From a virus: a DNA stretch of 28,490 bases. The notes beneath the pieces are model-generated. The model was not told the DNA's origin. It saw only the letters and a list, made by a program, of their open reading frames with translations, and did not search any database. Of the stretch, positions 3,673-27,813 are shown piece by piece. Each line of letters opens with the position of its first letter. Position 1 is the first letter of the stretch. The position numbers and the translations under genes are program-made. The stretch is from positions 1 to 28,490 of IMG/VR virus record IMGVR_UViG_3300003322_000945, one strand, 5' to 3'.

Positions 3673-4110
3673 TTATCCTCCAATCCAAAGCTTGTACAGA
3701 TCGGCATAGGGCGCATTCTTTTCGAACTTAATTCCCCTTTCTTTAAGCTCTTTTTTAATCTGAGCTATACCAATCTGGTTATTATCTTCTTTTTCAGTTT
3801 CACGTGAAACATCAACTGATTCAACTTTTTCTGATGAAGGATCATTATCGGAGCTGCTATCCGAATCGCCACCCGTATCACTCGGAAGAGTATTTTCCGA
3901 ATCGCCACCCGTATCACTCGGAAGAGTCTTTACCGGTGTGCTTGGAGGATCGCATTTAACTTCACTTTCCAGTTCAATCAAATGCCCGCTTGATATCAAC
4001 CAATCTATATTCCGAGCCGGAAACATATCCTCGTTAACAATGGTCCCTGTGGTGTACTTTTTCTTACCCTTTCCTGTAACACACAGAGACTTTACTTTAA
4101 ATTCTCTCAT
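3673..4110 (-). CDS. capsid-associated protein with acidic repeats and HeH/LEM-like C-terminus
   Basis: This 145-residue protein has three parts. Residues 1-50 form a compact basic domain (FKVKSLCVTGKGKKKY, then DWLISSGHLIEL). Residues 62-85 are two near-identical 12-residue acidic repeats (TLPSDTGGDSEN and TLPSDTGGDSDS), followed by more Ser/Asp/Glu linker. Residues 112-145 (IAQIKKELKERGIKF and DLYKLWIGG) resemble the small HeH/LEM-type helical domain found in phage head and transcription factors. It follows the major capsid gene by ten bases and precedes a terminator, so it probably ends a capsid transcript. The arrangement suggests a flexible head-surface or neck protein; the precise role is unknown. 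Confidence 0.6.
   Translation of the reverse strand: MREFKVKSLCVTGKGKKKYTTGTIVNEDMFPARNIDWLISSGHLIELESEVKCDPPSTPVKTLPSDTGGDSENTLPSDTGGDSDSSSDNDPSSEKVESVDVSRETEKEDNNQIGIAQIKKELKERGIKFEKNAPYADLYKLWIGG
3861..3927. repeat. 31-bp perfect direct repeat, period 36 bp
   Basis: Positions 3861-3891 and 3897-3927 are identical over 31 bases and lie 36 bases apart, in frame with the gene that contains them. They encode the two TLPSDTGGDS units. Identity at the DNA level, including third positions, points to a recent in-frame duplication. Confidence 0.95.
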
Positions 4111-12476: not shown

Positions 12477-12962
12477 ATGAAAAAGATAATAATCCCAATT
12501 GCATTCTTACTGTCTGGCTGTTTTTCTACTATAATGGATGATGATTATTCCAACATTGACAGTAACCTTCTGCCTTACGTAGAATCATTTATTAATGAGG
12601 CTAAGATTAGAGGAATTGATATATATCCTGATAATCTAAAGGTTAATTTTGGATGCCTTAATGGAGAGGCTGAGGGACGTACCCTTTATGAAACATCATC
12701 CATAATAATCGATTCATCATCAAATGCCTGGAAATCTGGAATGCGCGAGCAATTAGTATTTCATGAGTTGGGGCATCTACTTTTAAATCGCGGTCATGAT
12801 AATAATTTTTATGAATCAAAGCCATTCAACATCTGTAAAAGTATAATGAGTTCAAATGATTCACCGTACTATGAAAAAAAATATTCGTTCAGACGTGAAT
12901 ATTACATTAATGAATTATTCAATCCGAACGAACCTAAACCGAGTTGGATAAGTGACTTTTAG
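12477..12962 (+). CDS. lipoprotein with zinc metallopeptidase motif
   Basis: The 161-residue protein is the only plus-strand gene in the window. It starts with a lipoprotein signal (KK, hydrophobic core, lipobox LLSG followed by Cys15). Residues 96-107 read HELGHLLLNRGH: an HExxH zinc site with a third His seven residues after the second, followed by SIM at 122-124, which recalls the Met-turn of metzincin-like proteases. The spacing to the third ligand is longer by one residue than the classic HExxHxxGxxH. The product would be a lipid-anchored periplasmic or surface peptidase. It lies antisense within the tail operon, and its stop overlaps the convergent neighbour by four bases. Nothing suggests a virion part; I infer a moron acting on the host envelope, or lysis assistance. 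Confidence 0.75.
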   Translation: MKKIIIPIAFLLSGCFSTIMDDDYSNIDSNLLPYVESFINEAKIRGIDIYPDNLKVNFGCLNGEAEGRTLYETSSIIIDSSSNAWKSGMREQLVFHELGHLLLNRGHDNNFYESKPFNICKSIMSSNDSPYYEKKYSFRREYYINELFNPNEPKPSWISDF

Positions 12963-18922: not shown

Positions 18923-20434
18923 TTAATTTACGTTTCCAAAGTTAAATCCGGCCTCGGCATCAGTAGATGCAACGCGTACCGTACCACTTCTCTTATATCT
19001 AAAAAATGTTTCGAGTCTATCAGGGTTAACGGAACTCAACCCAACCTCAATAGAATTTTTCATGAAATCCGGATCTACTATCAGCGCCCGTGAAGTCAGC
19101 TCATCCGCGTATGTGAAAAGAACCTGTTTCCAGTTCTTTGGCTTCAGCACTTTGTTTGCCGTTACATTGTCCTCATCGCGCGCAATAACGTGATCAACAA
19201 CATTCACAAGTTCTTTCAGATAGTACCCGTAGTACACATTCCAATCGAGAATTATATTCCTGCAGTATCTGAATTGCGGCGGCTCCTCACCAACAGGATG
19301 GTATGTTGTTACAAAATCCTGCATTTGGTATCTGCCTGAGACAAGATCAACAGTTGAACAGCCTTTTTTCAGAATTGCATTTCTGTTTGTATAGACTCCC
19401 ATCGATCCTATTGAATCAGGGGTTGGCATATCCGGATATGATGTACCGCCAATATCGAGCTGTGGCGTATTTTGCGCGCAAATGGCCTGTATCCGGCATA
19501 CATTCGCAGCTGCTTCGAAGTGTAATCCAGCGCTGCCAGGCGCAGGAGCAATCGCAATTGTCATCTGATCTTTTCTAGAATCAGTGTATGAACTCGGATC
19601 ATCTTCAACGCTTCCTGTTATTGCAATGAATGGCTTGAAAATCACCGGTCCATATCTTCCTGTTGGTGGATCTGCAATACCATTGAAATTTTCAAACGTA
19701 TTCATCACCGATGTAACTGTACCGTAACCGTTTATAATCAGGGTATTCCAGTTATTCAAAAACAAATCCAATGATGCCTGAACTGATGGCGTTCCTGATC
19801 CTGCTTGTGTCGCGTTAACAGCGTATGTAATACCAAGGTCGTTACCATTTGTATCAACCTCCACCGAAATACCGTTAGCCGATAGGCCGGCCCATTTAGT
19901 GGTCAGGGTAGTAGAGTAATCATCAGATGATGCAATTACAGGCGATCCAAGCACAGCATTTATAACATCCTCCATTTTTTGGGTAATGTCTGCCGCAGTG
20001 TCTCCCGCTTCAATGTTGATATCGTAAAACAGGCCATCAACTCCCGTTCTTCCGGCGATCTTTAAAGTATGCGTACCGTTTCCGGTTGCCACTCCTGACG
20101 GCTCAACTTCCAAAACACGTTGAGTTGCACCAACAGCCTTTGCCTGCGGATAAACCACAGTCGGTATCCCGCCAACGCCATCGCTTCCAACGGGGCGCAA
20201 AATTCTCATCATCATGTGAATCGGTGAGCCATAGCCGTACACCTCTCCTGCCTGCTTGGCGCTCGTTATCTCCAACGGACTGGTGCTCAAATCAACCTGA
20301 TTCGCTTCATTGGCCTCGCCAAATATTGCAATTCGCATTGGCAGATTTGGGGAAACAACGCGGAAATCCCCTTTTTTAATTTGATACCCAAGAATCCGGG
20401 AAATGTATTCTAAACTAACCGCAGTTGATGCCAT
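18923..20434 (-). CDS. tail sheath protein, Mu gpL-like
   Basis: The 503-residue product has the gpL-type layout. The N-terminal region has FRVVSPNLPMRIAIFGEAN (the 'P.r.lliGq' pattern) and SAKQAGEVYGYGSPIHMM, then GIPTVVYPQAK. The central inserted domain (residues 105-300) is variable. The conserved C-terminal half carries IAIAPAPGSAGLHFEAAANV, DIGGTSYPDMPTP, GVYTNRNAILKKG (the gpL hallmark) and the closing RLETFFRYKRSGTVRVAST. The sheath surrounds the tube and contracts on adsorption. It is the first gene after a well-matched promoter and an intrinsic terminator, so it probably heads the tail transcript. Confidence 0.9.
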   Translation of the reverse strand: MASTAVSLEYISRILGYQIKKGDFRVVSPNLPMRIAIFGEANEANQVDLSTSPLEITSAKQAGEVYGYGSPIHMMMRILRPVGSDGVGGIPTVVYPQAKAVGATQRVLEVEPSGVATGNGTHTLKIAGRTGVDGLFYDINIEAGDTAADITQKMEDVINAVLGSPVIASSDDYSTTLTTKWAGLSANGISVEVDTNGNDLGITYAVNATQAGSGTPSVQASLDLFLNNWNTLIINGYGTVTSVMNTFENFNGIADPPTGRYGPVIFKPFIAITGSVEDDPSSYTDSRKDQMTIAIAPAPGSAGLHFEAAANVCRIQAICAQNTPQLDIGGTSYPDMPTPDSIGSMGVYTNRNAILKKGCSTVDLVSGRYQMQDFVTTYHPVGEEPPQFRYCRNIILDWNVYYGYYLKELVNVVDHVIARDEDNVTANKVLKPKNWKQVLFTYADELTSRALIVDPDFMKNSIEVGLSSVNPDRLETFFRYKRSGTVRVASTDAEAGFNFGNVN

Positions 20435-20465: not shown

Positions 20466-20496
20466 CAAACCTATAAGATTTTTAAATTAATCCAAA
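20466..20496 (-). promoter_or_regulatory. Bacteroidetes-type promoter for the tail operon
   Basis: On the minus strand TTTG (20496-20493), 19 bases, then TAGGTTTG (20473-20466) match the -33 and -7 elements of the Bacteroidetes consensus (TTTG, 19-21 bases, TAnnTTTG). The -7 element lies 31 bases before the sheath ATG. The -33 box begins right after the terminator U-tract. This is the best promoter match I found in the window. Confidence 0.75.
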
Positions 20497-20497
20497 C

Positions 20498-20524
20498 AAA
20501 AAAGCCGTGGGACCCATCCCCGGC
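20498..20524 (-). terminator. intrinsic terminator after the sugar-modification cassette
   Basis: On the minus strand GCCG pairs with CGGC and GGGA with TCCC, separated by one bulged A, with a four-base loop; the 8-bp stem is followed by six T residues (20503-20498). It lies 26 bases after the stop of the last cassette gene and just before the tail promoter, so it separates cassette from tail transcription. Confidence 0.85.
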
Positions 20525-20550
20525 ATAAAAATTAACAAATGAAAAACAGC

Positions 20551-21339
20551 TTATTTTAATATCGATCGCAGTTTAAAATGGTCCTGAACTTCTACAATTT
20601 TTCGGCCACTAAAGTACTTTATACCTGGGTTCTGTTGAATATCATACTCATCGTATTCCTGCATAAACATTTCAATCTCAGAATCTGCCCACGGACTTGC
20701 TGCGTTTTGGAACTTTAACCACACCGACTCCCGATCCTCGCGAACCAAAGAGTAATGATGCAACATCACATCATACTGATTGAGGACAACAAATTTACCA
20801 TACGTGTTCATCTGAACTGATGGGTCCACAAACACCGGGAAATTTCTAATGCGCTCTATTTTGGTGTTTGGGTGTAGCTTGCAGATGAAAGGCATGTGGT
20901 AAGTCTCCATTGGGGTTAACCTCCACTCTGGGTACTTGTAGTATGTGTACATCGCAGTGAAAGTACTATCTATACCCTGAGCCTCTATTTTTGATTTCCA
21001 TGAATGCAACTCCCCAGGCATATAGAAATGATCCGTAGCCATCATGAGAAAGTGGGTGCCGTTGAGTTGCTTTGCAACATCCACCATCATGTTATGCTTT
21101 CTCCTCTCGTTTTCTTTTGGCGGGCATGTTTGCGTTTCGTACATAACAATCATAACCTTGGACAGTTGTTGTACCCGGTTCATCAGATCATAGTGTTTTT
21201 CTATGTTCCATTTATTCCCCTTGTTAGACACCTCCTGATAACAAACAACTATACCATCAACGTACGGGTATATATTGTTAATTGATTTCTCCAACAGTTC
21301 GATCCCATCGAAAACGGTATAGCATGCTATTAATTTCAT
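20551..21339 (-). CDS. putative glycosyltransferase
   Basis: The 262-residue protein begins with MKLIACYTVFDGIELLEKSI, a GT-A-type first strand and helix, followed by VDGIVVCYQEVSNKG (second strand). A metal-site-like ATDHFY occurs at residues 101-106 after the strand GTHFLMM, where family-2-like enzymes carry their DxD. It has no membrane segment. The DxD is imperfect (D-H), so the assignment is weaker than for the other two transferases. Its ATG overlaps the stop of the asparagine-synthetase-like gene (ATGA), and a terminator follows 26 bases after the stop. It probably transfers a sugar in the cassette's glycan pathway. Confidence 0.55.
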   Translation of the reverse strand: MKLIACYTVFDGIELLEKSINNIYPYVDGIVVCYQEVSNKGNKWNIEKHYDLMNRVQQLSKVMIVMYETQTCPPKENERRKHNMMVDVAKQLNGTHFLMMATDHFYMPGELHSWKSKIEAQGIDSTFTAMYTYYKYPEWRLTPMETYHMPFICKLHPNTKIERIRNFPVFVDPSVQMNTYGKFVVLNQYDVMLHHYSLVREDRESVWLKFQNAASPWADSEIEMFMQEYDEYDIQQNPGIKYFSGRKIVEVQDHFKLRSILK

Positions 21340-22739
21340 TTTGAAATTGGTTTTGGTTTTATCTTATGACTTAATACAAACATTGCCCATTGGAAATTTG
21401 TCATGTATGGATTAGAGAATCCGCGTTTTTTTCCTTCAGTAACCTCTTTGCTCAATCCGCTTATATCCTTCAGTATTCTTTTATTCTTTCGATACTCAGC
21501 CGGGAGTGATAGCGCGAAATCAACAAAATCATTATCCAACAGTGGGTACCTGGTTTCCATTGTGTGATACCCTGAAATCCTATCCTCCACAACCAATATT
21601 GCTTTCAGAAATTTCCAATCATATTCCTTGTGGGTAATCTGGGTTGGATCGTAATACGGGTTTCTATCAAAGTCATCGGTTATTAATGTGCGTCTTATAA
21701 CATCGTTTATTGGGCGCTCATACCTGTGAGTATATCCATCAAACACCTCATCACCACCGGCGCCTGAGTATAATATTGTGCAGAACTTTGATGCCAACTC
21801 CGTAAGAGCAAAATTTGTGTAACAGCTTCCGGCCTTAGGATCATCCAACACCTCGGCGGCCGGATCCTTGTATGTATTGAAAAGCCTCTCATTGCAGATC
21901 AACGTATGGTGTATACCTACAGAGTTGTTTTTTATATTCTGTATTTCTGAAAACTTCTCATCTTGGTAATCCATACTGAAAGAATAATCAGGCTGCATTC
22001 TGTTGGCTATTATTCCACTATCCACACCACCCGATAAAAATATACCATCCTTTAATCCAACAACCTTATTCCTTTGAGCAGATTGATTGAATAGGTATAG
22101 TAATCTTTCTTTCGCCTCAGAATACGATATTGATATTTCTTTGGGCTGAAACAATGGCATCGGCTTAACTCTCTCTATACCGGTATATATAGTATCTTCA
22201 TTCATCACACCTAAACTATATATCCAATCCTCTGCACCTCGTTCCGATATCTCTATTTCATTTACAGCGAGTAACGATTTTACCTCACTAGCTATATATA
22301 TAGTATCTCCTTTTTTGTATCGGTATAATTGTTTTATGCCATACCTGTCTGTTACTGTATACACCTTCGATGATATAGCATCATAAGCAAGTATAGAAAA
22401 GAATCCGTTCAATGATCGCATCTGAACATTGTTCGGACCGCCAATAAAATTAATATACCATGCAAGAAACTCGGTATCACAATCTGTTTTCATTGGCGCC
22501 TTATACAGTATAGCCAGCTCACGGTAATTACTTATATAACCATTAAGCCATACCGTCCAGTTACCAAATGTATATGGCTGTGGTGGCGCGCTTGCATCTG
22601 TTATCGGAAGATGAGAAAACCAAACTTTTAAATTACCAATCTCAGTAACGTTACTTTTTGTGCCTCTATGGCGCAACGCATTGCCCATGCGTAATACCTC
22701 ATGCAATTGGCCATTTATTACCGCAGCTATACCACACAT
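21336..22739 (-). CDS. asnB: asparagine-synthetase-like glutamine amidotransferase
   Basis: The 467-residue protein has both domains of the AsnB family but is shorter than typical AsnB (about 550). Residues 1-160 are a class II glutaminase: Cys2 nucleophile in MCGIAAV, RHRGT at 23-27, WLNGYISN at 65-71 and D86 in the TDCD segment. Residues about 200-460 are an ATP-pyrophosphatase domain with the PP-loop SGGVDS (236-241), SGAGGDE (325-331), METRYPLLD (394-402) and KKRGF (437-441). In AsnB the glutaminase motif is NGE; here it is NGY, so the glutamate that binds substrate glutamine is replaced. The product moves amide nitrogen from glutamine to a carboxyl group after adenylation. In a sugar cassette the acceptor may be a sugar acid, not aspartate (inference). 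Confidence 0.8.
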   Translation of the reverse strand: MCGIAAVINGQLHEVLRMGNALRHRGTKSNVTEIGNLKVWFSHLPITDASAPPQPYTFGNWTVWLNGYISNYRELAILYKAPMKTDCDTEFLAWYINFIGGPNNVQMRSLNGFFSILAYDAISSKVYTVTDRYGIKQLYRYKKGDTIYIASEVKSLLAVNEIEISERGAEDWIYSLGVMNEDTIYTGIERVKPMPLFQPKEISISYSEAKERLLYLFNQSAQRNKVVGLKDGIFLSGGVDSGIIANRMQPDYSFSMDYQDEKFSEIQNIKNNSVGIHHTLICNERLFNTYKDPAAEVLDDPKAGSCYTNFALTELASKFCTILYSGAGGDEVFDGYTHRYERPINDVIRRTLITDDFDRNPYYDPTQITHKEYDWKFLKAILVVEDRISGYHTMETRYPLLDNDFVDFALSLPAEYRKNKRILKDISGLSKEVTEGKKRGFSNPYMTNFQWAMFVLSHKIKPKPISK

Positions 22740-22742
22740 ATT

Positions 22743-23102
22743 TCAATTGTAGTTTAATCCTGTTTGTTGAGATGGATGTACACTGCTGAGTTCTTTTACT
22801 TTATCACATTCGAACTCAACATATGTATCATATATAGTTACCTCTTGAACTGTTCTGCCTATACCCTTCTTTTTAACATCCAATATAATGTGATCCATTA
22901 TGTAATTCACATACATATCATCACCATGAATTTTATATATCGAAAAGTACGAACGTGTGTGACACAGTCCTTTTACCGGCTTATTGTCAATAAACAATTC
23001 TCTATCTATCTCTGGGCCCATTACATGAAAATGCTGAACTAACTGTATTAATTCAGGGTGTTTGTATTTTAGAATGTCCCTTTTAAAAGTAGTCTTTCCC
23101 AT
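22743..23102 (-). CDS. hypothetical protein of the cassette
   Basis: The 119-residue protein lies three bases upstream of the asparagine-synthetase-like start and one base after the acyltransferase stop, so it belongs to the cassette transcript. It is soluble, rich in His and Tyr (FHVMGPEIDRELFID, HTRSYFSIYKIHGDDMYVNY), with alternating strands in its C-terminal half (VQEVTIYDTYVEFECD). No known motif is seen. Its place between enzymes suggests a partner or a small binding fold, but function is unknown. Confidence 0.6.
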   Translation of the reverse strand: MGKTTFKRDILKYKHPELIQLVQHFHVMGPEIDRELFIDNKPVKGLCHTRSYFSIYKIHGDDMYVNYIMDHIILDVKKKGIGRTVQEVTIYDTYVEFECDKVKELSSVHPSQQTGLNYN

Positions 23103-23103
23103 A

Positions 23104-23673
23104 TTACTTAAATCTTTCGGTGTTATCTCCTATATCTCGCGCCGGACTCCCTGCGTATTTTCTACCTGGCTTAAGTATTGTTTTTTTTGTGATCGTACTG
23201 TTCATTCCAATCATGCATCCGGATGGTATATTTAATCTTTGATGAGCAACAGCGCCAAGTCCAAAATTGGTATTCTCTCCTACAACAGTATGGCCACCAA
23301 TGATTGAGTTGCACGATAACACAACACCGTTTTTTATTACAGCATCGTGACCAACATGGGCATTCTTCAAAAGAATAGTAAAGTCACCAATAAACGTCTC
23401 TTTGTCTGTGCCCGCATCAATAGTCACCTGCTTTGTGAATCGGTTGTTGTTCCCAATTATAACAAGACCACATTTGTCAAAGTATCCAATTTTCTCAGGA
23501 GCATCACCGATAATACAGTATGGGCCTATATGGTTGTTATCACCAATCAAAACATTCTCACGCACTATAGATCCCTCATAGAAAATATTGTTCTTTCCTA
23601 TGCGCGCGTGGGGGCTTATGTGTGAATTAAAATGGGCTTTGTTTCCATTGCCAAGATTAAAGAATTCATCCAT
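23104..23673 (-). CDS. LpxA-like left-handed beta-helix acyltransferase
   Basis: The 189-residue protein is built of hexapeptide repeats ([LIV]-G-x4-type), visible from residue 18 to 165. Residues 104-110 (NAHVGHD) align with the LpxA segment that holds the catalytic His, so His109 is the likely catalytic base. Other LpxA-like marks are VTIDAGTD (83-90), GGHTVVGE (126-133) and AVAHQ (141-145). LpxA itself has a C-terminal helical domain (total about 260); that domain is absent here, as in sugar O- or N-acyltransferases. The expected reaction is transfer of an acyl group from a carrier to a sugar hydroxyl or amine. It overlaps the upstream glycosyltransferase by eight bases, so they are coupled. 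Confidence 0.8.
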   Translation of the reverse strand: MDEFFNLGNGNKAHFNSHISPHARIGKNNIFYEGSIVRENVLIGDNNHIGPYCIIGDAPEKIGYFDKCGLVIIGNNNRFTKQVTIDAGTDKETFIGDFTILLKNAHVGHDAVIKNGVVLSCNSIIGGHTVVGENTNFGLGAVAHQRLNIPSGCMIGMNSTITKKTILKPGRKYAGSPARDIGDNTERFK

Positions 23674-24391
23674 ATATTAATTGGGCTAGGTTGTTAGGTA
23701 AATTTTCAAAAAGTAGTTTTTTACCATCTACAAATCTTGAATTCTCCCATTGCTCAAATGGTGTCATGTTCGTAGATGACTTTATATCAAGCGCAAATAA
23801 TTTATCGCGCATCAAATTTATTTCAATCTTCGACCCGGCCAGTCTCTCCACCTGCTTATCAAATGCTGTATCCAAAACACGATCATAACCAGGTGGCCAG
23901 CAAATCCAATTCATTTTATTGAGGAATGATTTTGAAATAAGGCGGCCTATACCTGCTCCTTTCCCCCGATTGAAGCTCCGAATATAGCCGCCCCAATACA
24001 AACCCCTCTTTGATACTGTATCGAAAAAATAACAGTCAGTTAAGTAAGCATAATCAACACCACGCTGCATTAACTCAAAGTATTTTTCCATTAGCGAATG
24101 TCCTATTATATCATCACTGCCAACCATCAAACAATAATCAGCTTCTAATTTTTTAGCAAGTGATGTTGCCTGATTCATCTTTGCACCAAGCGGCTGATTG
24201 GGTGTTTCCGTGTAAAAGAAATTGCTATACATTTCTACTATAGATCTGCTTATACTGCCTTCGCTGCCGGCGACACAACAAACTATTTCAATGCTGCCTT
24301 TAAACATATCCTGAAGATGCATAACACCGGCAGCAAACATGCTGAATATTTCCGGGCGTTTCCATATACCTGTCACTATCGCAACTCTCAT
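23666..24391 (-). CDS. GT-A-type glycosyltransferase (second)
   Basis: The 241-residue protein has a GT-A first strand (MRVAIVTGIWKRPEIFSMF) and a nucleotide-binding pattern with VCCVAGSEGS, then LEADYCLMVGSDDIIG, where GSDD (91-94) is the expected metal-binding site. Late in the protein GKGAGIGRLISKSFL and WPPGYDRVLDTAF match acceptor-side segments of family-2-like enzymes. It lacks a membrane segment, so it is a cytosolic enzyme using a nucleotide-sugar donor. It shares one base with the upstream transferase (TAATG) and overlaps the acyltransferase start. Confidence 0.75.
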   Translation of the reverse strand: MRVAIVTGIWKRPEIFSMFAAGVMHLQDMFKGSIEIVCCVAGSEGSISRSIVEMYSNFFYTETPNQPLGAKMNQATSLAKKLEADYCLMVGSDDIIGHSLMEKYFELMQRGVDYAYLTDCYFFDTVSKRGLYWGGYIRSFNRGKGAGIGRLISKSFLNKMNWICWPPGYDRVLDTAFDKQVERLAGSKIEINLMRDKLFALDIKSSTNMTPFEQWENSRFVDGKKLLFENLPNNLAQLIYG

Positions 24392-25104
24392 TAGTCTATC
24401 TGGCTTGGTAAGAAATCACAATTGTTTGATATCGATGGCTGTGAGAATTGAGAATAAAAATTAAAACTCTCCTCATCCATAATAGACTTCAGAAATCCAT
24501 TATCCAATGATCCCCTTGGAGGCTCGTATCTGTGCAGTCTGGTTGTATGAGACTGTCCACCGGTTTTACCAAAGCCATGCTTTATACCAATGGATATATG
24601 CGACTCCGGACAAAATGTAATTCTTGATTTTACTTTAGTCCATAACCACATGTCCGTGAATGGCTCGTTATCTACCGGCCATCCATCCCGTGATAACAAT
24701 TGAGGTATCTTTGGTTTGATGATTGTATTCATCGCGCTGGCTCGATCCGGATGGCTCATCTTGTAGTATTTGCGCAAACCTATATGATAGTAGATAGTAT
24801 AGTTGGTGCCAAATAAATCAGGGCGACCCGCTTTATCCCATTCGCGAATCATTGTTTCAAGGTATAGCGGTGAGTACCAATCATCATTTTCAATGAAGGC
24901 GATTAGATCAAGTGTATCGTATTTGGAGAGTAACTGATACCCGTGATAATAACGTGGGGTTATATCAACCTCATCGTTCACCGGCTTGTAATCAACAAGG
25001 TGTATATATTCCGGTTTTAATGTCTGCGCTTCGATCATGCGCAAACAGTTTTTAAGGAAGGCAGGTCGGTCCCCTCTATCGGGTATAAGAATTGCAACTT
25101 TCAT
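24391..25104 (-). CDS. GT-A-type glycosyltransferase (first)
   Basis: The 237-residue protein begins MKVAILIPDRGDRPAFLKNCL, a family-2-like N-terminus. DLIAFIENDDWYSP (residues 66-79) carries an END-D metal site after a strand, in the usual place. The segment DMWLWTKVKSRI and the polar C-terminus resemble acceptor-binding regions. No membrane segment is present. It is the first gene of the cassette, 25 bases after a -7-like element, with a 98-base gap upstream. Together with its neighbours it should act on a cell-surface glycan or a virion glycan; which one is not visible from sequence. Confidence 0.75.
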   Translation of the reverse strand: MKVAILIPDRGDRPAFLKNCLRMIEAQTLKPEYIHLVDYKPVNDEVDITPRYYHGYQLLSKYDTLDLIAFIENDDWYSPLYLETMIREWDKAGRPDLFGTNYTIYYHIGLRKYYKMSHPDRASAMNTIIKPKIPQLLSRDGWPVDNEPFTDMWLWTKVKSRITFCPESHISIGIKHGFGKTGGQSHTTRLHRYEPPRGSLDNGFLKSIMDEESFNFYSQFSQPSISNNCDFLPSQID

Positions 25105-25129
25105 TTAGTAGGTAGGGTAAATGTATTTC

Positions 25130-25137
25130 CAAATATA
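25130..25137 (-). promoter_or_regulatory. candidate -7 element for the sugar-modification cassette
   Basis: TATATTTG on the minus strand matches TAnnTTTG and lies 25 bases before the ATG at 25104. I see no TTG at the -33 distance, so strength is uncertain, but the 98-base gap before the cassette supports a promoter here. Confidence 0.4.
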
Positions 25138-25202
25138 TGGAATGAATCTATTAACGCGAACCGGGTTCGGGCAGGCCCTCCCCCGTACTCGCGAAAGTGT
25201 TT
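25138..25202. other. GC-rich non-coding gap before the cassette
   Basis: This stretch contains a run much richer in G and C than its AT-rich surroundings (about 25156-25195). It includes CGAACC-G-GGTTCG, a near-perfect palindrome with a one-base centre, and two copies of CGCGAA as a direct repeat. The short GGGC/GCCC arm is too tight for a good terminator. No tRNA cloverleaf can be drawn. It may be a recombination scar or an operator; I cannot tell. Confidence 0.35.
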
Positions 25203-25457
25203 TTAACTTCTATCGTAAATTTGCACAATGAAAGAATTATGATATTCTTTTTTATGATGTATAGAAAAATCATAATCTCCTTTCAATGAAGTACATATTT
25301 TCATAGCGCTATGGTGTGTCTTAACAGCAATCAATATTGATTCATTGGACGCATTTACCTCAGCTCCTATCCCCATCTCTTCCAATAAAAAATGCTTTAT
25401 ATCATCTGGATTTGACTTTGAAGGCAAGCAGCCATTAAAAGCAATTAATCTTGACAT
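25203..25457 (-). CDS. small hypothetical protein
   Basis: The 84-residue protein starts inside the preceding small gene, overlapping it by 13 bases. It is soluble, with a helix (NPDDIKHFLLEEMG), a strand (ESILIAVKT) and a second strand near the C-terminus (SFIVQIYDR). No family motif was seen. It lies between terminase and cassette in the same orientation. Small accessory proteins in this place may include regulators or inhibitors of host functions, but there is no sequence support for a specific role. Confidence 0.5.
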   Translation of the reverse strand: MSRLIAFNGCLPSKSNPDDIKHFLLEEMGIGAEVNASNESILIAVKTHHSAMKICTSLKGDYDFSIHHKKEYHNSFIVQIYDRS

Positions 25458-25690
25458 AAATCTATAGCCTGCTTTATGCTTGACGCAAAAATACCGTTAT
25501 AACCATTATATCCATTATCACGACCCTCTCTAACCACGTAGAGCGATTTAGCCTCACCATCAAAGTCAGTGAACAATATTACATTACCATTAAGTTTACC
25601 TTCATAAAAAGAACCAGCTTTGTTGGTTCTTACAATATTAACCTCTATACCCGCCTTATTTAATTTCTGGATAGCTGAAGTAGTTTTCAT
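25445..25690 (-). CDS. small hypothetical protein
   Basis: The product is 81 residues from the ATG at 25690. A longer frame reaches 25762, but it crosses the promoter-like region and the inner ATG is preferred. It has an N-terminal helix (TSAIQKLNKAGIEVNIV), strands (SFYEGKLNGNVILFTDF), a small repeat YNGYNG and a final helix (SIKQAIDLC). The pattern of helix, strand, strand and helix resembles small phage accessory proteins with unknown function. It is probably co-transcribed with the following small gene. Confidence 0.5.
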   Translation of the reverse strand: MKTTSAIQKLNKAGIEVNIVRTNKAGSFYEGKLNGNVILFTDFDGEAKSLYVVREGRDNGYNGYNGIFASSIKQAIDLCQD

Positions 25691-25720
25691 GACTTTCGCG
25701 TTTTGTGTTTGATTATGATG

Positions 25721-25751
25721 TAAAGTTATTGATAACTTTTTAAAAACAAAA
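25721..25751 (-). promoter_or_regulatory. candidate promoter with overlapping dyad operator
   Basis: On the minus strand TTTTG (25751-25747), 18 bases and TAACTTTA (25728-25721) resemble a promoter with an imperfect -7. A perfect dyad, AAAGTTAT (25722-25729), TG, ATAACTTT (25732-25739), covers the -7 element. This looks like a repressor-type site for the two small genes that follow. Confidence 0.45.
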
Positions 25752-25767
25752 CAATAATACACGAAAT

Positions 25768-27813
25768 TTATTTTTTACCAAGTATCGCATTAACCAAGTT
25801 GGTCCACGTTGGCTTATCTATTTTCATACTCTTACACATTATTGAAACGAAAATATCCCGGAGCGCTGTATTGTAGATCCTGCAGTCGAACATGTGATTT
25901 TGAACAGCTGAGTTTTTTTTCTTCCAGCGCCATGAAACAGTATTACCATCTTTCATCTCAGACACACGCTGCTCTGCCTCAAAATGGCTGAAATAATTTG
26001 TGTATAGGTACTTTTCGTCCGATGGAATAGGGAAGTTCATGAAGTTTGTAGGCTGTAAAGCGTCCTCAGATGCATCCCAATTGAGCTGTATATACCCCGA
26101 AAGAGTATCTTTTACCACGTTAACCTCAATCAAATACATGTTCGCGTGCTCTCTGGCCGGCTTAAATGGTGGTATATCAACGCCAAACTTGGTGGCCTTC
26201 GACTCATCTCGCCCCTTTAACGCCACTCTGAACGGGTTAGCAAGCTTATCTATGTATGGATATGCGTGTTCCGAGTAGTGGCCGCAGTCAATACCAGCCA
26301 TCAGGATACGCAATTTCCGCCCGCTCTGCGCCTCATAATCAGCGTTTAATATCTTGGTAAGCTCAGTCCATACGCTTCTTGGGCGGCCATGGTGATACGT
26401 CCAGCGCTCCCGATCTTCCCTATTATTTTTTTGTTTTTCGTTAGGCACAAACGTACCTATTGACCCGTGCACAACTGAATAACTCGGGCCGGCTTCTGAC
26501 CACGCTACAATTTCATAATCCAACCTGGCGTCATCAGGAACACCGTTCAAATCACACGCGCAAGTCAGTAAAACTATTCTACCATTCCCATCAGCTGCAG
26601 ACAATTCATCCGGAACAATACCAACTTTATATTTCCTGATGTTGTGTTGCTGTAATTTGTTCGCGTTTAACTCAGAAACCTCCGGTTCGTATGTCTCGGC
26701 CAACACAAGATTCACAAAAGTTTGATGCAATCCCTCGTTTCTTGGCTGCCCTGGCGGGTTTGCTTCGAGGTATTGACGCACATAATCCGTCCATGTGCTC
26801 ATGCCTGGCGGCGAATACAAGCAGGAAATGTGATAGGAATAATACCCAACCTCGGATGGCTCAGCGGTTGGCTCCCAAAAACCCTGCAAATTCATATTAT
26901 ATTTATGGCTTTCATCAAAAAAACCTCCGCATTCTTGGCATATATACCCCACAGAATTCTCATCGCCGACCAACACACCATCAATCAATCTGTTCTTTTC
27001 ATCAAGTCGCCAAGTTATACCACCTTTTTTTGTCCCATCTGTCCCGGTTATGTCAACGCTCCACATCAGCGGAATGAATGCACCGCACAATGGACACGGA
27101 ACTTTATACCTGCGCTGATCTCCTTTTAAAAACAACGGCTCTATGTTCGATGTTGATTTTCTCTCCGGAGTAGAAATAAATGCCACCTTCATTTTGTCCC
27201 TAAATGCAGTATGCCGATGCAAAATCATTCTCTCGGTTGATCCTGACTCCTTTGTTGCACGCGGTGCATTCTCAAAGTCATCATAAAGCCCGAATCTTAT
27301 AGATCTTTGACGCAACAATGCGTGATTACTTGACGCTCCAGCCACTAAAGATCCAGCGGGGAACTCTTTCGATTTAGCAGTATCGCCGGTTCGTTGGTTT
27401 TTTTTCTTCTTTATGGACGGGCGAATTAGATGGCGCAGGTTGCATGACTCAATCATTGCATCAATTCTTGTATTCATTGCCTCCTCTGAAAGTGTTTCAT
27501 GGCCCGATAAATACATTATAGGACCTGGATTTTCGCTTATTATCCAGCCAATAACGTTCTCTATAACGCCCGCGCTAAATCCTATCTGACCTCCTTTCAT
27601 CACGGCTACAATTCTTGCCGGGCTGTCCGGTGAAAATAAATCTAAAGGCTCCCGTAGGTATGGTGTAATATCAAAACGGAACGGGCCGGGGAACGCGCTG
27701 TCCAGCGGCATCACTCGCCTATCTTCAGCCCACGCACTCGGGGATACATTTGAAATTTTCTGTCTACCGACCTCAACAATGTTCAAAAGTTCGTTTACAT
27801 GGCTCAGTGTCAT
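25768..27813 (-). CDS. terminase large subunit, GpA type
   Basis: The 681-residue protein has the GpA-type layout. The N-terminal ATPase has a deviant Walker A (MKGGQIGFS, 72-80), Walker B with the catalytic Glu (FGLYDDFE, 174-181) and the coupling motif STPER (214-218). A zinc-like pair of Cys doublets follows (C240/C243 and C292/C295, CPLCG and CQECG), common in GpA proteins. The C-terminal nuclease domain begins near residue 413 with LLTCACDLNG; Asp421 is a likely metal ligand. It pumps DNA into the prohead and cuts it. It overlaps the small subunit by ATGA and is followed by a 77-base gap. Confidence 0.93.
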   Translation of the reverse strand: MTLSHVNELLNIVEVGRQKISNVSPSAWAEDRRVMPLDSAFPGPFRFDITPYLREPLDLFSPDSPARIVAVMKGGQIGFSAGVIENVIGWIISENPGPIMYLSGHETLSEEAMNTRIDAMIESCNLRHLIRPSIKKKKNQRTGDTAKSKEFPAGSLVAGASSNHALLRQRSIRFGLYDDFENAPRATKESGSTERMILHRHTAFRDKMKVAFISTPERKSTSNIEPLFLKGDQRRYKVPCPLCGAFIPLMWSVDITGTDGTKKGGITWRLDEKNRLIDGVLVGDENSVGYICQECGGFFDESHKYNMNLQGFWEPTAEPSEVGYYSYHISCLYSPPGMSTWTDYVRQYLEANPPGQPRNEGLHQTFVNLVLAETYEPEVSELNANKLQQHNIRKYKVGIVPDELSAADGNGRIVLLTCACDLNGVPDDARLDYEIVAWSEAGPSYSVVHGSIGTFVPNEKQKNNREDRERWTYHHGRPRSVWTELTKILNADYEAQSGRKLRILMAGIDCGHYSEHAYPYIDKLANPFRVALKGRDESKATKFGVDIPPFKPAREHANMYLIEVNVVKDTLSGYIQLNWDASEDALQPTNFMNFPIPSDEKYLYTNYFSHFEAEQRVSEMKDGNTVSWRWKKKNSAVQNHMFDCRIYNTALRDIFVSIMCKSMKIDKPTWTNLVNAILGKK

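Follow-up and report, generated by a model that had tools for sequence, protein, structure and literature searches.

A predicted glycan-modification cassette at a variable terminase-sheath junction of Bacteroidota-type contractile-tailed phages

Both the phage moron and phage-encoded glycosylation are already known. The gtrABC systems require a membrane flippase and a bactoprenol glucosyltransferase and normally lie beside an integrase. For mycobacteriophages that encode glycosyltransferases (GTs), glycans are reported on capsid and tail-tube subunits in the passages of PMC12619734 and PMC10877033 that cite Freeman et al. 2023. T4-like cyanomyoviruses possess a hyperplastic region between g15 and the sheath gene g18, which holds 4-14 genes and contains genes of carbon metabolism and plastoquinone-related ones (PMC2984593), while Cellulophaga phage phi18:1 encodes a glycosyltransferase, gp41, in its structural module that is conserved in the genus (PMC11946311). 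Here, we analyzed virus record IMGVR_UViG_3300003322_000945, all 28,490 bases of which constitute the window, meaning the whole stretch of DNA under analysis. Between its terminase gene TerL and its tail sheath gene lies a six-gene cassette encoding three GTs (GT1-GT3), an LpxA-like acyltransferase, an orphan protein and an AsnB-like amidotransferase, a version of phage glycosylation that is unseen in 50,697 deposited phage records.

The functionally closest system is mycobacteriophage virion glycosylation, which likewise depends on phage-encoded GTs. The present locus differs in being a multi-enzyme cassette with an acyl- and an amidotransferase that is swappable, invertible and Bacteroidota-type, and the two are likened by description, from genes alone. 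The architecturally closest one is the g15-g18 region, also a hypervariable site that lies within the structural module shortly before the sheath gene, but it belongs to another phage lineage, and the site described here carries glycan genes, can be empty and can hold inverted islands. The phi18:1 gp41 is likewise a GT encoded among the structural genes of a Bacteroidota phage, but it is a single gene of putative function, and its comparison by sequence is confined to the finding that GT1-GT3 match nothing in the phage collection. The gtrABC system is also a phage-borne glycan-modifying moron, whereas multi-spanning proteins of the GtrA, GtrB or GtrC type are absent among the six cassette proteins. 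Additionally, AsnB-like amidotransferases of surface-polysaccharide loci combine an N-terminal nucleophile (Ntn) glutaminase with an ATP-pyrophosphatase beside a sugar acyltransferase and GTs, as seen here, whereas the AsnB subfamily of the window resides in phages and has changed equivalents of Arg49 and Glu76. In the literature, we found no report of this enzyme combination or of a swappable, invertible glycan island.

Variable occupancy and orientation at the TerL-sheath junction

The cassette consists of six minus-strand genes (20551-25104), neighbours of which overlap or lie 1-3 nt apart, transcribed in the order GT1, GT2, LpxA-like, orphan, AsnB-like and GT3. It is flanked upstream by TerL (25768-27813, minus strand; GpA 2e-51, PF05876/PF20454) and downstream by the tail sheath gene (18923-20434, minus strand; phrog_165 2e-83, 49% to Cellulophaga phage phiSM). 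The gene coordinates and the family matches of the flanks confirm the first-pass annotation, which had placed six coupled genes between terminase and tail sheath.

Relatives were sampled by a sheath profile, independent of cassette content, and 51 of the resulting 80 loci, some of them near-duplicates, contain both TerL and the sheath gene. The junction is empty (16-244 bp) in 23 of these 51 loci and is occupied by an island of 1.0-9.2 kb in the other 28. At least one recognised cassette or glycan gene is present in 25 of the 28 islands, while none is recognised in L148, L150 and L185. The islands occur in both orientations, the majority opposite to TerL and sheath and a minority co-oriented like that of the window, and the structural module is otherwise collinear in the full maps of five relatives. 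A sheath tree of 60 rows requires a minimum of 8 changes in island presence, with 5 each in orientation and in AsnB content. Other island alleles encode further GTs and FkbM and TylF methyltransferases, together with a sulfotransferase, a nucleoside diphosphate (NDP)-sugar epimerase, an AsnB or an LpxA-like protein in some of them. The empty junctions, and the fact that most islands run opposite to the structural genes, bear out the moron architecture that had been proposed for the cassette, and we are highly confident that it is an accessory island at a fixed hot spot. The opposite case would be that the six genes are fixed, co-transcribed members of the structural module that lack separate regulation. 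The closest relative, G001 (L031), fits such an arrangement, as it has the same gene order on the same strand and a gap of 36 bp from TerL to GT1. The clade's empty and inverted junctions, where the genes are not fixed, contradict this view, and the terminator and promoter-like element that separate GT3 from the sheath gene in both the window and L138 also speak against it, leaving it only a very slim chance.

The regulatory signals were compared across these loci. TAnnTTTG is the Bacteroidota -7 element, and a -7-like element of this type, TATATTTG, precedes GT1 (25130-25137, minus strand). The motif occurs at chance level in the window alone (36 found vs 31 expected). It is present in 19 of 33 regions ahead of the leading gene in opposite-strand islands (3.0 expected), and upstream of the sheath gene in 20 of 69 (4.5 expected), compared with 2 of 69 for a control gene (2.1 expected); as the null comes from mononucleotide shuffling and the regions share ancestry, the enrichment lends support without amounting to proof. 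Inverted islands need a promoter of their own. Downstream of GT3, a terminator-like hairpin (GCCG GGGA..TCCC A CGGC, 20524-20504) is followed by T6 (20498-20524, minus strand), and next to it a Bacteroidota-type promoter-like element, TTTG-N-TAGGTTTG, stands before the sheath gene (20466-20496, minus strand). In L138, likewise a closest relative, a different stem and T-run occupy the same place and are followed by the same TAGGTTTGTA before sheath. The first-pass annotation had claimed a -7-like element ahead of the cassette and a separate promoter for the tail operon, and both gain tentative support from the relatives, although not from window-only counts. As to its strong terminator, the hairpin, the T6 and the L138 counterpart hold, whereas the folding energy on its own is unremarkable (z -0.65). 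Several window-level or related signals were set aside: sigma-70 sites show no excess (28 vs 29.9 expected), a terminator scan gave 5 hits against 6.6 expected and missed the bulged hairpin after GT3, and the enrichment of TAnnTTTG before the tube gene (35/68) falls in the sheath coding sequence. In L200, tandem copies of ACGAGTACCTA separate the island from the sheath gene.

L067 and L218 have a further insertion site, located between p102 and p176. There, a pair comprising GT1 and a glycosyltransferase with the domain of the head-module protein p145 (described below) is inserted antisense (L218:10166-11914 plus the adjacent GT1, and L067:8638-10260), and the TerL-sheath junction of the L218 phage is empty. 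In G007 and G008 (L136, L233), about four antisense genes, including one for a protein of 211-220 residues, are located between the major capsid protein (MCP) gene and p145. In one island protein (L129:12465-13157), a NUMOD4 motif is combined with a weak match to sigma-70 region 2.

Predicted enzymes of the cassette and their distribution

GT1 (24391-25104, minus strand), the hallmark gene of most islands, encodes a predicted GT-A/GT2-family glycosyltransferase with an ENDDWY motif. It shows a weak Glycos_transf_2 match (PF00535, 0.0044), its family profile finds the solved GT 3bcv at 2.5e-4, and ENDD-Y is invariant in the 21-row family alignment. GT2 (23666-24391, minus strand), a core gene with an SDD motif, has no convincing family match (TIGR04440 at 0.01). 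Its AlphaFold model (26-row alignment) has a predicted local distance difference test score (pLDDT) of 94.7, and Foldseek returns WrtF (1e-8), K4CP, TarP and the PBCV-1 capsid glycosyltransferase (2e-6), the last described as glycosylating the major capsid of PBCV-1. GT3 (20551-21339, minus strand), usually the last gene where islands carry it, has no family match; its single-sequence scan was empty, and relatives were recovered via neighbouring genes. The AlphaFold model of GT3 (19-row alignment) reaches a pLDDT of 94.8, with SunS, a peptide S-glycosyltransferase, as the best structural match (8e-8), followed by SpsA (2e-7). A PDB sequence search gave no clear homologue for GT2 or GT3, and their structural matches are at fold level, with 10-14% identity, and do not fix the substrate. 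Acidic motifs (SDD, TDH/xDE and ENDD) are conserved in the GT family alignments. Because the confident models of GT2 and GT3 match GT-A enzymes and GT1 has its profile match, all three GT assignments stand, including GT3, where two clear and one probable GT had been proposed; based on the confident models, GT2 and GT3 are predicted GT-A glycosyltransferases.

The core gene at 23104-23673 (minus strand) encodes a short LpxA-like acyltransferase with a left-handed beta-helix. It matches PF00132 at 1e-16 and, in a PDB profile search, 8e62 at 4e-39 and many LpxA entries at about 1e-34 to 1e-31, while its TIGR01852 match (6e-30) is under the family cut-off. The catalytic His109 is kept in all 24 alignment rows. 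LpxA itself has about 260 residues with a C-terminal helical domain, whereas this protein has 189 residues and lacks that domain, and the profile match stops near residue 195 of 262. The third core gene (21336-22739, minus strand) encodes an AsnB-like glutamine amidotransferase/ATP-pyrophosphatase that matches PF00733 (9e-29), PF13537 (GATase_7, 4e-16) and human ASNS (4e-42), with Cys2 and the ATP-pyrophosphatase SGG-DS loop present in 24 of 24 rows. As judged from these matches, the LpxA-like and AsnB-like assignments, both made in the first pass, are solid. In AsnB, Arg49 and Glu76 bind glutamine. The Arg49 equivalent is H/W/Q/Y, mostly His or Trp, and the Glu76 equivalent Y/F/C, mostly Tyr or Phe, each in 21 of 24 rows, so that the nitrogen donor need not be glutamine. 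The remaining gene (22743-23102, minus strand) encodes a 119-residue orphan protein, for which no family and no homologue in any fetched locus was found. Together, these identities support the proposed sugar modification, and glycan chemistry is very probably what the cassette performs.

Searching 2.9 million viral contigs with a GT2 profile brought up 84 relatives. Among the 78 GT2 loci with the gene called, 10 of which end at a contig boundary, the LpxA-like gene lies at most three genes away in 55 and AsnB in 45, while GT3 is found at most five genes away in 39. GT1 and GT2 are fused in L009, L011, L012 and L030, and an AsnB-LpxA fusion of 664 residues occurs in L013. By gene neighbourhood, GT2, AsnB and the LpxA-like gene form a predicted unit, the core trio. 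A similar profile scan, run on 84,980 species genomes of bacteria and archaea, gave a single match, on a contig of a metagenome-assembled genome (MAG) with phage-like neighbours. GT1, GT2 and GT3 have zero relatives among the deposited phage records, and the AsnB relatives there show about 27% identity or below. The cassette represents several putative, uncharacterised phage glycosyltransferase families without a match in the deposited phage genomes searched.

The acceptor of the putative glycan

The protein p145 (3673-4110, minus strand) is encoded between MCP and the head-closure protein (Hc1), in empty-site and occupied-site phages alike. Its N-terminal domain is homologous to the N-termini of many island GTs, as indicated by hidden Markov model (HMM) matches down to 6e-24 and by hhalign (8.4e-17 and 5.7e-7). 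This domain of about 50 residues, which has no Pfam family and is found at GT N-termini in L013, L017, L022, L055, L067 and L068, could be a targeting module. Core genes also recur beside structural genes elsewhere, following tape-measure/tail genes in the L002/L026 group and directly preceding the portal gene in the L112 group. All six cassette proteins are below the hydropathy threshold for a membrane segment (highest 19-residue value 1.16), as are all but 6 of 182 island proteins across the clade. In two sets of related records, an integrase is present in one record out of 26 and in seven out of 24, five of the seven island-bearing, and it is absent in the searched AsnB-type carriers of this clade; the window, a fragment, was read for integrase as an open reading frame (ORF) list alone. 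The soluble proteins, the structural-module placement, the p145-domain GTs and the scarce lysogeny markers favour a virion acceptor, for which we consider the chances about even. Virion decoration, one of two roles offered in the first-pass annotation, is the best fit, at that same level of confidence. A Ser/Thr-rich linker of p145 was rejected as the glycan acceptor, as linkers elsewhere are mostly acidic, Lys- or Pro-rich, and linker composition has no evident relation to island state in island-bearing and empty phages. Resolvase and DNA polymerase A (0/26 each) are uninformative alone as lifestyle markers.

Several points weigh against a virion acceptor or the chemistry assumed with it. In L069, the trio adjoins replication genes rather than structural ones; p145 is a putative virion protein, and the domain fused to GTs could serve another role; soluble GTs could just as well use lipid-linked precursors of the host; and the altered glutamine pocket of the AsnB-like protein suggests that amidation may not be glutamine-driven. 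The first of these touches on an alternative in which the product or target of the cassette is a small molecule or a host protein, for auxiliary metabolism or counter-defence, its location being an accident of a tolerant insertion site. The L069 locus, the three islands devoid of recognised cassette genes and the carbon-metabolism genes upstream of the cyanomyovirus sheath gene (PMC2984593) agree with it. Such a role would leave the p145-domain fusion unexplained, and it sits poorly with the glycan genes in 25 of 28 islands and with the recurrence of this core in phages that are unrelated, within their tail and portal modules, which makes it improbable.

The third point leads to the host surface. 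Serotype conversion is a classic role of GTs and acyltransferases encoded by phages, and LpxA/NeuD-like and AsnB-like enzymes are, by their family matches, typical of surface-polysaccharide loci. The cassette might then, while the phage grows lytically or as a lysogen, alter a host surface glycan such as an O-antigen, a capsule or a lipid-linked precursor and mask receptors against released or competing phages, and the seven integrase-positive records of one set, five with islands, are in line with this. No flippase- or GtrB/GtrC-like membrane protein accompanies the six sub-threshold proteins, however, and neither the p145 domain nor the recurrent structural-module placement is explained. The integrase-free AsnB-type carriers and the lone phage-like MAG contig in the species genomes also speak against it, and we regard a host-surface target as rather unlikely. 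The same observations do not support the Bacteroidetes prophage setting assumed in the first-pass annotation, nor its exclusion of other phages by a lysogen; a host-surface role in lytic growth may still apply.

A DNA acceptor was also considered, in which the GTs glycosylate hydroxymethylated phage DNA and the other enzymes elaborate the sugar into an anti-restriction shield. Virus-encoded GTs do hypermodify DNA with diverse glycans, according to the part of PMC12619734 that cites Pyle et al. 2024. PF00303 (thymidylate synthase/hydroxymethylase) was found in 0 of 31 related records, which are fragments, compared with 9 of 14 genomes in a control search, and most phages carry the cassette in structural rather than DNA-metabolism modules; this acceptor is very unlikely.

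The gene set, the folds, the three states of the junction and the tie to structural modules are shown by the data; for the preferred reading, a virion acceptor, we infer catalysis, reaction order, acceptor and benefit as follows. The cassette would be one allele that enters the TerL-sheath hot spot in a Bacteroidota-type contractile-tailed phage clade and would be transcribed separately during infection. Its soluble enzymes would draw on host sugar nucleotides; the GTs would assemble a short saccharide, to which the LpxA-like enzyme would add an acyl group and the AsnB-like enzyme an amide. The acceptor would most likely be a virion protein that the phage itself encodes and that is modified in the cytoplasm at about the time of assembly, and differing alleles would yield differing virion coats that may escape binding by host factors, grazers or competing surfaces. 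We give this joint reading, a swappable moron allele with its own transcription whose soluble enzymes decorate a virion protein so that coats vary by allele, a roughly even chance of being correct. More tentatively, and with the balance somewhat against it, the site might be a phage 'glyco-serotype locus' like O-antigen or capsule loci, with alleles swapped and inverted and GTs steered to assembling virions by the head-module domain. If the virion is the acceptor, these phages would diversify their coats by cassette exchange, as bacteria do their surface polysaccharides, and would offer a genetic handle on virion glycosylation beyond mycobacteriophages. Regardless of the acceptor, the clade is a natural experiment, in which collinear phages present empty, occupied and inverted states of one site, and it supplies uncharacterised phage GT families along with an AsnB subfamily whose glutamine pocket is altered.

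Flanking genes and minor features

Nearly all genes of the window are on the minus strand, in the order TerS, TerL, two orphan ORFs, the cassette, sheath, tube, tape measure, baseplate, portal, protease, decoration, MCP, p145, the head-closure protein and then tail-fibre-like genes. Judged by sheath and terminase, the deposited phages closest to the window are Cellulophaga phiSM (about 49% identity) and Flavobacterium columnare phages (about 37%). In these phages TerL is distant from sheath and the gene order differs, so the TerL-sheath site does not exist there. The two orphan ORFs between TerL and GT1 (25445-25762 and 25203-25457, minus strand) have no relatives among the fetched loci, and a strong GC-rich hairpin follows them at about 25155-25193. 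No Rfam family or tRNA was found in the window. Leaving the cassette aside, the structural module has a single gene of notable size on the plus strand (12477-12962), which encodes a protein of 161 residues with a lipoprotein-like signal (LLSGC) and a HELGH zinc-protease-like motif, and it looks like a second, single-gene moron.

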